From Flavobacteriaceae bacterium (GTDB lineage: Bacteria > Bacteroidota > Bacteroidia > Flavobacteriales > Flavobacteriaceae): a DNA stretch of 36,934 bases. The stretch is from the NCBI GenBank assembly GCA_024763365.1, contig JANTFO010000013.1:1-36934 (forward strand). Direction: 5' to 3'. The translations under genes and the position numbers were made by a program. The notes beneath the pieces were generated by a model. That model ran no database searches. It was not told the DNA's origin and saw only the letters and a list, made by a program, of their open reading frames with translations. Of the stretch, positions 20,269 through 21,822 are shown piece after piece (within the stretch, counting starts at the first letter, position 1; each line of letters begins with the position of its first letter).

Positions 20269-20395
20269 CCGTCTAAAAAGTTTAAAAAGTTGTCATTTAG
20301 AGTGGAGTCGAGAAATCTAACCTATTGAACATTAAAGAATTAGATTTCTCCATTGCAGTTGAAATGACAGAAAACCTTGCTTATGAGACGGTTTC
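20265..20395. repeat. Imperfect long palindrome, dispersed MITE/REP-like element
   Basis: Two nested pairs of arms define about 130 bases. The outer pair is GAAGCCGTCT (20265-20274) against AGACGGTTTC (20386-20395). The inner pair starts GTCATTT (20292) and ends AAATCTAA (20320) on the left, and reads TTAGATTT (from 20340) to GAAATGAC (20368) on the right. The left arm holds GTGGAGTCGAGAAATCT, which resembles a short intergenic repeat I have seen in many Flavobacteriia. It sits between the convergent pepT gene and the sorting-domain remnant. No ORF inside. Confidence 0.65.
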
Positions 20396-20413
20396 TTTCT
20401 ATGGATATAAATA

Positions 20414-20821
20414 TTACTCTTTTATAATTTTTAATACTTTACTTCCTTCATTTGCCCTCACATTAATAAAATAATTACCTGAGGCTAAATGTGATATATC
20501 GATACATTGCGTATTAAGCTCATCACTATTTTTAAAAGTAAAATATTTAAGACTTTTACCCGCAATATTGTAGATCGTTACCCCTATATCATTTAAGTCA
20601 CTTTTAGTTTTTAATAAAAGCATACCATCTTGTATGGGATTTGATATAACATCCATGTTAAATTCAGATGATAATTCTTGTTCATTAGATGAGAAAAGCA
20701 AGAATGGTTCCGGCATATCAGAACCTAATATAAGTTTAGCCTGAACAAAGTAATGAGGATTATAACCATTATTACAATCACTACAAGTTACTCCGCTCAC
20801 ACAGTAAAAAAATAGGGACTT
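20414..20821 (-). pseudogene. 5'-truncated remnant: C-terminal type IX secretion sorting domain
   Basis: The frame is open on the minus strand from a TAG near 20830 to TAA at 20414. Its last 80 residues form a Por secretion tail: a strand with VISNPIQDG, then LLKTKSDLNDIGVTIYNIAGKSL, DISHLASGNYFINVR and a basic end KVLKIIKE. This domain normally ends large proteins exported by the type IX system. Here only about 50 unrelated residues precede it, with no signal peptide; the first usable start is a GTG at 20800. The open frame begins next to the tRNA promoter. I read it as the 3' end of a lost secreted-protein gene. A real short protein is less likely. Confidence 0.6.
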
Positions 20822-20833
20822 TTTTTTAATCTA

Positions 20834-20866
20834 TTGCTTCAATAGGCATTTTTTATATTATATTTG
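20834..20866 (+). promoter_or_regulatory. tRNA promoter (-33 TTG, -7 TATATTTG)
   Basis: TTG at 20834-20836 and an exact TATATTTG at 20859-20866 are 22 bases apart. Transcription would start near 20871-20873, about 10 bases before the tRNA. Both elements of the Bacteroidota promoter are present. Confidence 0.7.
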
Positions 20867-20881
20867 CACCCACCAAAAATT

Positions 20882-20955
20882 GGCGAGGTAGCTCAGTCGG
20901 TTAGAGCGTCGGATTCATAACCCGGAGGTCACGAGTTCAATTCTCGTCCTCGCTA
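20882..20955 (+). tRNA. tRNA-Met (anticodon CAU)
   Basis: A full cloverleaf can be drawn. The acceptor stem GGCGAGG pairs with CCTCGCT (first pair G-U) and the discriminator is A. The D-stem GCTC/GAGC encloses a GG-containing loop. The anticodon loop TTCATAA reads CAU, and the T-stem ACGAG/CTCGT closes the loop TTCAATT. The anticodon stem has a U-G closing pair and an A-C at its base. CCA is not encoded. The paired 1-72 end argues against initiator tRNA; elongator Met is most likely, while tRNA-Ile2 with a lysidine-modified CAU cannot be excluded from sequence alone. Confidence 0.93.
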
Positions 20956-20963
20956 CAAAATTG

Positions 20964-20993
20964 ACCTTTCAGTTAAAAACTGAAAGGTTTTTT
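20964..20993 (+). terminator. tRNA terminator (hairpin copy 1)
   Basis: An 11-bp perfect stem, ACCTTTCAGTT with AACTGAAAGGT and a 3-base A loop, is followed by TTTTTT. It begins 8 bases after the tRNA end. Three variant copies follow at 21062-21092, 21166-21196 and 21270-21300; in these the stem changes are G-U wobbles that keep pairing. Confidence 0.9.
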
Positions 20994-21019
20994 ATGCCCT
21001 TTATTGTAAGATTATCAGG

Positions 21020-21054
21020 CCACGAGTTCCCCCTTCGGGGCTCGTCCTCGCTAC
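21020..21054 (+). repeat. tRNA 3'-tail copy 1
   Basis: CCACGAG...CTCGTCCTCGCTAC repeats the T-arm and 3' acceptor strand of the tRNA at 20882. The seven-base T-loop is replaced by a 14-base segment, TTCCCCCTTCGGGG, that folds on itself. There is no D-arm or anticodon arm. Confidence 0.85.
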
Positions 21055-21118
21055 AAAATTGACCTTTCAGTTAAAAACTGGAAGGTTTTTTTGTGTCCTT
21101 TATTGTAAGATTATCAGG

Positions 21119-21158
21119 CCACGAGTTCCCCCGATACTTCGGGGCTCGTCCTCGCTAC
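21119..21158 (+). repeat. tRNA 3'-tail copy 2
   Basis: As copy 1, but the loop replacement is five bases longer and contains the palindrome CCCCGATACTTCGGGG. The tail is followed by TAAATTGACC where the tRNA and copy 1 have AAAATTGACC. Confidence 0.85.
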
Positions 21159-21222
21159 TAAATTGACCTTTTAGTTAAAACTGGAAGGTTTTTTTTGTGT
21201 CCATTATTGAAAGATTATCAGG

Positions 21223-21262
21223 CCACGAGTTCCCCCGATACTTCGGGGCTCGTCCTCGCTAC
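21223..21262 (+). repeat. tRNA 3'-tail copy 3
   Basis: Identical to copy 2 over its whole length, including the CCCCGATACTTCGGGG palindrome and the following TAAATTGACC. Copies 2 and 3 thus look like the latest duplication. Confidence 0.85.
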
Positions 21263-21410
21263 TAAATTGACCTTTCAGTTAAAACTGGAAGGTTTTTTTT
21301 GTGCTATGTTTAATATTAATTATTAGTATTAGAGAATATTATCTCTAAAATTTTCAACATTTTCTTTATAAAATATATAATAAAACTCATTGAAATATCA
21401 ATTTTTTTTC

Positions 21411-21418
21411 TATATTGG
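21411..21418 (+). promoter_or_regulatory. Near-consensus -7 element for the START-like gene
   Basis: TATATTGG differs from TAnnTTTG at one position and lies 20 bases before the ATG at 21439. It overlaps the TTG at 21415 that could open a longer frame, which favours the ATG. The bases from 21301 to here are AT-rich, with a small inverted repeat TTAGAGA/TCTCTAA (21329-21348) and nothing else recognisable. Confidence 0.35.
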
Positions 21419-21438
21419 CAATCCAATCAATACAAATT

Positions 21439-21822
21439 ATGACCGAAAAAATAAAGGTAGAAATAGAATTTCCCATACAAGCTTCTCCGCAAATGCTTTA
21501 TCGCTATTTTTCAGAAGCTTCTAGCTTAGATGAATGGTTTGCGGACAATGTAAACTCGCGTGGCGAAATATATACTTTTATTTGGGGAGATAGCGAAGAG
21601 CAAGCTCGATTGCTTAAATATGAAACTGAAGAATATATGCGTTTCAGGTGGTTGGAGAACGATGGTGAAGACGTATATTTCGAGTTTCGCATTCAGGTGG
21701 ACGATCTTACTAAAGATGTATCTCTTATTGTCACCGACTTTGCGGAAGAAGACGAAGTAGAAGACATCAAACTTTTCTGGGAAAATCAGATCAATGAGTT
21801 GAAACTTACCATTGGTGCCTAA
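21439..21822 (+). CDS. START-like (SRPBCC) domain protein
   Basis: The 127 residues from ATG 21439 form a small START/Bet v1-like helix-grip domain: an opening strand KIKVEIEFPIQAS, a helix PQMLYRYFSEASSLDEWFAD, several strands (YTFIWGDSEEQARLLKYE, YMRFRWLE, YFEFRIQ) and a long acidic C-terminal helix with LFWENQINELKLTIGA. Such domains bind hydrophobic ligands, but none can be named. It is followed after 17 bases by a class IV aminotransferase gene. I recall this pairing, with yqgE and HU behind, in other Flavobacteriia. Confidence 0.8.
   Translation: MTEKIKVEIEFPIQASPQMLYRYFSEASSLDEWFADNVNSRGEIYTFIWGDSEEQARLLKYETEEYMRFRWLENDGEDVYFEFRIQVDDLTKDVSLIVTDFAEEDEVEDIKLFWENQINELKLTIGA

Follow-up and report, generated by a model that had tools for sequence, protein, structure and literature searches.

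Bacterial mobile DNA preferentially inserts at transfer RNA genes, with integrases as the standard explanation. Elements targeted to tRNA genes by tyrosine recombinases reconstitute part of the tRNA gene, so that the original part is displaced. Another kind of tRNA-associated DNA is found in Escherichia coli, where tandem repeats (rttR, tpr) lie behind tyrT and tyrV. Rfam holds a family for such tyrT-type repeats, and to our knowledge they have gone unexplained for decades. In E. coli K-12, three copies spaced by 178 bases follow tyrV, and a further one lies between tyrT and tyrV; all end in AATCCTTCCCCCACCACCA, a copy of the tRNA tail starting in the T-loop, after TTCG. Each copy is preceded by AAGGTTCG, the 5' half of the T-arm, and by a perfect palindrome, either CGTTGCCGCAGGCAACG or CGTTGCCACAGGCAACG.

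Phages provide a further precedent. SegB of the T-even phages (studied in T6) is a free-standing GIY-YIG homing endonuclease located in tRNA clusters (PMC13096335). According to the available part of that account, SegB cleavage peaks lie within tRNA genes, with the motif RAWTSGAAC at 23 of 83 sites; the enzyme drives tandem amplification of a unit composed of the tRNA and segB via homologous recombination, and the co-location of SegB-type genes with tRNAs favours no particular isotype (PMC13096335). By our own reading, the SegB motif would be the reverse complement of the tRNA T-loop, GTTCSAWTY. Short palindromes of bacterial chromosomes are also known from the REP/RAYT system, where the available text describes them as carrying a GTAG or CGTC tag (PMC3733652).

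Here we describe an array behind a tRNA-Met gene in the window, by which we mean the whole 36,934-nucleotide stretch of Flavobacteriaceae DNA that was analyzed. The genome assembly from which it comes comprises 2.0 Mb in 149 contigs and is 84% complete, and the copy number of the array rests on this metagenome assembly. The tandem array spans 20943-21299 with a period of 104, direct repeats being spaced by 98, 104, and 104 bases. Its units occupy 20957-21054, 21055-21158, and 21159-21262, with pairwise identities of 95/104, 90/105, and 99/105 columns. The features of the locus are as follows.

20882-20956, + strand: intact tRNA-Met(CAT) heading the array, found by ARAGORN (Rfam tRNA, 68.7 bits over 20882-20955)
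20963-20989, + strand: terminator-like hairpin 1, 3' of the intact tRNA (terminator scan)
21020-21029, + strand: unit 1 copy of the T-arm 5' half, CCACGAGTTC, where the tRNA itself has TCACGAGTTC (sequence comparison)
21030-21040, + strand: unit 1 palindrome CCCCTTCGGGG, replacing the remaining T-loop (sequence comparison)
21041-21054, + strand: unit 1 exact tRNA-tail copy (T-stem 3' strand, acceptor 3' strand, discriminator, and C)
21061-21087, + strand: terminator-like hairpin 2 (terminator scan)
21119-21128, + strand: unit 2 copy of the T-arm 5' half (sequence comparison)
21129-21144, + strand: unit 2 T-loop palindrome CCCCGATACTTCGGGG (the fold of 21108-21158 has -18.4 kcal/mol)
21145-21158, + strand: unit 2 exact tail copy (sequence comparison)
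21165-21190, + strand: terminator-like hairpin 3 (terminator scan)
21223-21232, + strand: unit 3 copy of the T-arm 5' half (sequence comparison)
21233-21248, + strand: unit 3 T-loop palindrome CCCCGATACTTCGGGG (sequence comparison)
21249-21262, + strand: unit 3 exact tail copy (sequence comparison)
21269-21294, + strand: terminator-like hairpin 4, closing the array (terminator scan)

All three units adjoin the tRNA as palindrome-interrupted partial copies of it. The T-arm 5' half CCACGAGTTC is retained, a palindrome of the CCCC..GGGG type (CCCCTTCGGGG in unit 1, CCCCGATACTTCGGGG in units 2 and 3) takes the place of the remaining T-loop, and the 3' strands of the T-stem and the acceptor stem come next without a mismatch, so that each unit ends in the same exact tail, CTCGTCCTCGCTAC. 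The terminator scan of 20700-21500 returned five sites, compared with 0.5 +/- 0.8 in shuffled sequences; these were the four + strand hairpins of the array and the reverse strand of hairpin 1. The + strand RNA of 20882-21310 folded with z = -7.0, and none of 100 shuffles folded as well. No open reading frame of at least 80 amino acids overlaps the array, and the nuclease profile described below gave nothing significant against the whole window (best E 0.64). The array carries neither a nuclease gene nor a recognizable remnant of one, and it probably has no host function beyond its repeated terminators.

A preliminary description of this DNA had reported three units of 98, 104, and 104 bases with terminator hairpins and a fourth hairpin behind tRNA-Met(CAT), and the repeat and terminator scans bore this out. 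It had taken the units to be copies of the T-arm and 3' acceptor strand; this is correct for the exact tails, but the units are not plain copies, as the T-loop is swapped for a palindrome. The statement that no gene lies inside likewise stands for this array but cannot be extended to its relatives, since the tRNA-Phe unit of the same genome contains a nuclease ORF.

The window units and the E. coli tyrT/tyrV repeats are alike in anatomy: both are tandem units behind a tRNA, with an exact tail copy from the T-loop and a T-arm half joined to a palindrome. A common origin would be no more than a possibility. The E. coli unit is, however, longer and without the YCCCGA palindrome, and no nuclease is among the eight annotated features of that stretch; an Rfam search of 20300-21600 gave no match to the tyrT-type repeat family at E up to 1. 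Short chromosomal palindromes are shared with the REP/RAYT system as described in the available text, but here their positions are tied to tRNA loops. A CGTC was seen by eye two bases after the window palindromes, where it belongs to the tRNA tail.

We then surveyed the tRNA genes of three genomes for own-tail copies, each a run of at least 12 bases from the last 20 of the gene, repeated exactly in the 600 bases downstream. In the source genome (G000), the survey covered the 33 tRNAs found by ARAGORN in loci taken from it (an Rfam search also gave 33). The preliminary description had named a lack of similar tail copies at other tRNAs among the conditions that would leave only a chance duplication, yet 11 of these 33 tRNAs have one. 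Controls in the same genome gave 0 copies upstream, 0 antisense, and 1/1054 for the tails of other tRNAs. In the congener G299, an own-tail copy was present at 1/36 tRNAs (other tails 2/1260), and in G007, which belongs to another genus, at 8/39 (other tails 4/1474), with upstream and antisense controls of 0 in both. Unlike the loci collected below by pattern or best hit, these rates come from a census of tRNA genes, although the three genomes were not randomly drawn. The tail copies start in the T-loop or the T-stem 3' strand. The distal copy is the most decayed in several arrays (His, Leu, Lys, and Trp of the source genome), whereas the tails in the window are all exact. As ended by ARAGORN, tRNA genes have a terminal C without a following CA in 32/33 cases in G000, 27/36 in G299, and 35/39 in G007, and only the first base of CCA seems to be encoded in most tRNA genes of these genomes.

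The units are of several types. In class A, the window type, the T-arm 5' half is kept and YCCCGA..TCGGGR lies in the T-loop; it occurs at Met, Gly, and Phe of the source genome. In class B, a left arm that can pair with the tail is followed by GAGAAGCNTGTCCCGA..TCGGGA and by the tail itself; it occurs at His (variant), Leu, Lys, Trp, an initiator-like Met, and Asn (variant). The Arg and Ser units are different again. Three tRNA-Arg loci of the source genome (L042, L060, L065) show a third type, with CAAAGCGGAGCTTTG or a similar sequence, an AGGAT..ATCCT hairpin, and the tail. At the initiator-like tRNA-Met on contig C14 of the source genome (L059/L002), the terminators flanking the class B unit are an exact hairpin inversion of each other, CTGAGAAACCTCAG versus CTGAGGTTTCTCAG. 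No gene was found inside the class B, Arg, or Ser units among the loci read.

Among 397 genomes of the family, the class B core occurred 40 times, in 20 genomes, versus one match to a reversed control pattern. A same-strand tRNA was located 16-462 bases upstream at 35 of 37 class B loci, several of which come from one array; the tail match was at least 12 bases long in 23 of these 35 and shorter in 12. The class A pattern gave a summed 135 matches in 53/397 genomes, compared to 7 control matches. At 30 class A loci, a same-strand tRNA was found within 355 bases upstream in 19, just downstream in 2, and not at all in 9, and a tail match of at least 10 bases was retained in only 12. An exact search of genome contigs for the T-arm/palindrome/tail string of the window gave 0 matches. 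A doubled-tail pattern gave five, four of them off tRNA tails and one real (L038, at the tRNA-Met of a Bacteroidetes MAG). A DNA search with the array matched 21 of 299 family genomes, by query coordinates mostly in terminator stretches, and was of little use.

The tRNA-Phe unit of the source genome revealed a longer form of the same structure. Behind the tRNA are a terminator, an ORF of 91 amino acids matching the GIY-YIG family of Pfam (PF01541, 1.1e-11), a T-loop palindrome, a tail copy, and finally another ORF, which is truncated. With the Pfam model, three small GIY-YIG ORFs were found in the source genome, all of them behind a tRNA (Phe twice, Ala), and none of the seven found in G007 is near one. 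A nuclease profile was built from an alignment of eight tRNA-linked ORFs, and at 1e-12 it matched 86/299 genomes of the family and 129/395 sampled genomes of the phylum. The 56 loci returned, together with 80 further regions chosen from the 299-genome list, made a set of 136, some of which overlap one array. A nuclease match was present in 135/136, and in 114 of these 135 it lay within 400 bases of a same-strand tRNA; these rates do not represent random samples, because the loci came from best hits and patterns. Of the 21 unlinked loci, 10 are no more than 200 bases from one end of the stretch, and in 3 a tRNA is located 404-424 bases away. When 18 of these 21 and two other loci were searched for RNA families, four tRNA matches and one SAM riboswitch were found. 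One locus of G007 (L109, contig C7) has a small GIY-YIG ORF and several TCCCGA..TCGGGA palindromes, with no Rfam RNA gene in the stretch.

As judged from these sequences, the anatomy of the full units and their link to tRNA genes are clear. A full unit has about 350-400 bases and consists of a stretch that rebuilds part of the tRNA (in the window, the tail and a terminator), a GIY-YIG gene of about 90 amino acids, and the displaced partial tRNA copy with a palindrome in place of a loop or arm. Depending on the lineage, units stand on the 3' or the 5' side of the tRNA; the 5' type is a mirror image, with a palindrome-bearing partial copy of the tRNA 5' part, the ORF, and then the intact tRNA. 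A partial tRNA copy was found in 103/109 units, five repeat loci being excluded; its longest unbroken match had a median length of 20 bases. A perfect palindrome was present at the partial copy in 95 of 109 units versus 35/337 control windows, a rough control because tRNA arms and terminators are also palindromic. The position of the palindrome could be read on at least one side in 88/111 units (L312 and L382 being one locus). By tRNA, it replaces the following positions, the counts being of units read on both sides.

Phe: 56 to 62, in 7/11 (plus one on the 5' side alone; three unread)
Val: 28 to 46, in 6/17 (most others agree on one side)
Arg-TCT: 27 to 45, in 3/8
Ala: 27 to 45, in 3/3
tRNA-CAT: 35 to 41, in 5/7 (51 to 58 in L370, with a window-like tRNA)
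Asn, 3' type: 45 to 51, in 5/13 (others at 25 to 36, partly mixed)
Asn, 5' type: 14 to 18, in 5/5
Pro-TGG: 51 to 67, in 6/10
Pro-GGG: 28 to 46, in 4/6 (partly mixed)
Arg-CCT: 22 to 27, in 3/4
Asp: mixed
Arg-TCG: read in 0/4

At the sequence level, palindrome positions are fixed in many lineages. Four tRNA-Pro loci (L285, L294, L321, L353) have near-full-length extra copies ahead of the nuclease ORF, tRNA-shaped pseudogenes in which the T arm, and sometimes the D and anticodon arms, are swapped for other hairpins.

Units with ORFs also form tandem arrays. Three units of about 370 bases lie at the tRNA-Phe of G354, five at another tRNA-CAT of G123, and seven in G157, starting 1.5 kb behind tRNA-Phe. 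At the tRNA-Phe of G135, one palindrome is shared by an ORF unit and by three units of about 91 bases that have no ORF, which shows how arrays like that of the window can arise. Draft contigs end inside or beside units at L293, L326, L348, L349, and L358, and arrays are therefore probably under-counted and may break assemblies.

The nuclease lineages are largely tRNA-specific. A tree was built from 108 ORFs after unlinked loci, identical sequences, and fragments of less than 70 amino acids were dropped. Over the 13 tRNA labels with at least two rows (99 rows, with 9 single rows uncounted), 17 label changes were required, compared to a minimum possible of 12 and a mean of 73.2 with shuffled labels, and 0/200 shuffles were as low. 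The exceptions are Asp (3' type) and Ala, which are scattered, and Val and Arg-TCT, which are intermingled in a single clade; with only 92 columns in the alignment, many forks are weak. The structure model of the nuclease is a bare GIY-YIG module with a pLDDT of 91.5, in which Y5, Y16, G18, R26, and E64, invariant in the alignment (A1), are residues that we take to be catalytic. Since there is no separate DNA-binding domain, fidelity to a tRNA may come from recognition of hairpins. The best matches were to UPF0213 and SLX1-type nucleases, both by sequence (UPF0213 at 5.2e-7, an SLX1 homologue at 0.0075) and by fold (E 3.6e-3 and 2.1e-2), with I-TevI lower in the list; a link to tRNA is stated for neither, and SLX1 acts with SLX4 on branched DNA according to structure entry titles. 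None of the solved structures reached E 0.001 in the fold comparison (best 3.6e-3), three nucleases were without an NCBIfam match at 0.001, and no homologues of one nuclease were found in phages (50,697 records) or plasmids at 1e-5.

The resemblance to SegB lies in a GIY-YIG nuclease beside tRNA genes and in tandem amplification. The GIY-YIG domain with its conserved residues is present in the family nucleases (PF01541 and the structure model) and absent from the window. SegB is phage-borne and amplifies a whole tRNA, whereas the units here are chromosomal and their lineages tRNA-specific. Family units contain a palindrome-interrupted tRNA piece, of which the available part of the SegB account makes no mention (PMC13096335).

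Close relatives of the tRNA-Met of the window occur with and without units. Most ORF units at a CAT tRNA belong to a tRNA other than that of the window, with 44-49 identical bases of 75-76. A window-like tRNA-Met(CAT) (60/77 identical) with a full nuclease unit was found in G568, from another family of the class (L370), where the order is terminator, GIY-YIG ORF, T-arm palindrome CCCCGATAAATATCGGGG, tail copy, and terminator. An ORF-less unit with a T-loop palindrome lies at a near-identical tRNA-Met (72/75) of G007, and the ORF-less unit L038 (70/75) has its palindrome ahead of an intact T arm. The congeners G299-G302 have the same tRNA-Met and no such unit.

Filled, decayed, and empty sites can be recognized from sequence comparison. 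In G560 a unit lies behind tRNA-Phe; the syntenic site of G610, with flanks 85-89% identical, is empty, and its terminator is joined directly to the native flank. Searching 23 genomes of this genus gave 22 readable tRNA-Phe loci, with two strong nuclease matches, one remnant (E 2.2e-6), and no significant nuclease match within 500 bases at 19/22. Gain is not proven by such an empty site, because deletion through direct repeats would leave the same one. The two tails at the tRNA-Asn of G007, proximal and displaced, are not the same, nor are their terminators; of the two tails, the displaced one fits the tRNA 5' strand better, which is what would be seen had incoming DNA pushed the old tail away. 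In the one pair of filled and empty sites compared, G560 and G610, the intact tRNA-Phe has the same sequence. The carrier is therefore not immune by sequence, and a nuclease cutting the tRNA loop should cut its own carrier; this negative carrier-immunity test speaks against textbook homing for the tRNA-Phe pair, as a free-standing homing endonuclease of the SegB kind would be expected to have an immune carrier allele. Nuclease-driven mobility of the units is inferred.

Because the same kind of unit is found behind many tRNAs of related bacteria, often with a nuclease gene, it looks like an unrecognized family of tiny mobile elements. We consider it fairly probable (about 0.6) that the window array consists of three ORF-less, tandemly amplified members of this family of very small tRNA-bound GIY-YIG elements. 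With no nuclease gene in its units, though one is present at tRNA-Phe of the same genome and at tRNA-Met of G568, the array is at most an ORF-less relative. Given the SegB parallel of tRNA-gene cleavage, a motif readable as the T-loop, and tandem amplification, we propose a model of cutting, repair, and insertion. The nuclease would rarely cut tRNA genes or their hairpins at the loop, and recombinational repair would insert and multiply the unit, giving tandem growth. The palindrome would spare the extra copies from cutting and make them less prone to recombine with the intact gene. Units without an ORF, those of the window among them, would be deletion derivatives, possibly moved in trans by a nuclease, as the source genome has GIY-YIG ORFs at tRNA-Phe and tRNA-Ala. 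We put forward only tentatively, as a bolder reading that may well be wrong, that these are a new class of mobile DNA, chromosomal GIY-YIG elements that home to one tRNA arm and exchange it for a palindrome while rebuilding the tRNA, with a hairpin-directed, SLX1-like nuclease and with the E. coli tyrT repeats as a relic of the same process.

Such a family would be widespread, with a nuclease match in 129/395 genomes of the phylum, no integrase seen, and units of less than about 400 bases. Its lineages would mostly keep to single tRNA types, a palindrome standing in for a tRNA loop or arm at recurring positions. Many of the small GIY-YIG genes next to tRNAs would thereby be accounted for. The family would also offer an origin, open to testing, for tandem arrays of tRNA tails, those of E. 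coli tyrT perhaps among them, and connect such arrays with SegB, a phage nuclease that cuts tRNA genes. A search at title and abstract level, with the subscription literature largely outside it, found no published account of such elements.

The units might instead have arisen passively, slippage or unequal recombination having multiplied the stretch from T-loop to spacer, with dispersed palindromes landing in the redundant pieces and nuclease genes hitch-hiking. The preliminary description had called replication slippage the simpler explanation, and tandem expansion did occur in the window array, as its units are near-identical; in many arrays, moreover, terminators are duplicated along with tails. 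Similar tail copies at 11 of 33 tRNAs, and core motifs in 20 and 53 of 397 genomes when similar units were sought elsewhere as had been suggested, nevertheless make chance duplication alone insufficient. Palindromes of the TCCCGA..TCGGGA type do occur off tRNAs (20 in 485 kb, versus 142 in 821 kb near tRNAs, in a biased sample), and 9/30 class A loci have no tRNA nearby, but T-loop breakpoints recur at many tRNAs, nuclease lineages are tRNA-specific, palindromes hold fixed tRNA positions in many lineages, and mirror-image 5' units exist. We therefore regard a passive origin as unlikely.

That the units are made for their RNA, as tRNA-like stem-loops with swapped arms serving as decoys, processing signals, or antitoxin-like RNA, we think improbable. 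A whole loop or arm is often replaced stem for stem by a palindrome, the folds are strong (z = -7.0, and -18.4 kcal/mol for 21108-21158), and E. coli rttR is annotated as a small RNA; distal copies are decayed in several arrays, though not in the window, and only 1/36 tRNAs of the congener G299 has a copy. The earlier suggestion of decoys for RNase P, RNase Z, or CCA-adding enzyme found no support. Compared with our preferred reading of mobile GIY-YIG elements, the tail copies are far less probably leftover att sites of tyrosine-recombinase islands. Units here have about 45-400 bases, no integrase lies between tRNA and tail copy in the array (no ORF of at least 80 amino acids), and palindrome-interrupted displaced copies and 5'-side units do not fit such scars. 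Two class B units, those of the 37 loci that have no same-strand tRNA upstream, lie behind displaced tRNA fragments (L094 clearly, L098 probably). The island reading was disfavoured after comparison with the congener G302, in agreement with the preliminary description, which had set ordinary island insertion aside: the island copy there differs in length and start from those in the array and has no T-loop palindrome. The tRNA-Met of the window is a true island site in that congener, where a 3.2-kb island (contig C61; L028, L034) carries a 45-base copy of the tRNA 3' half, extending from the anticodon loop to the tRNA 3' end.
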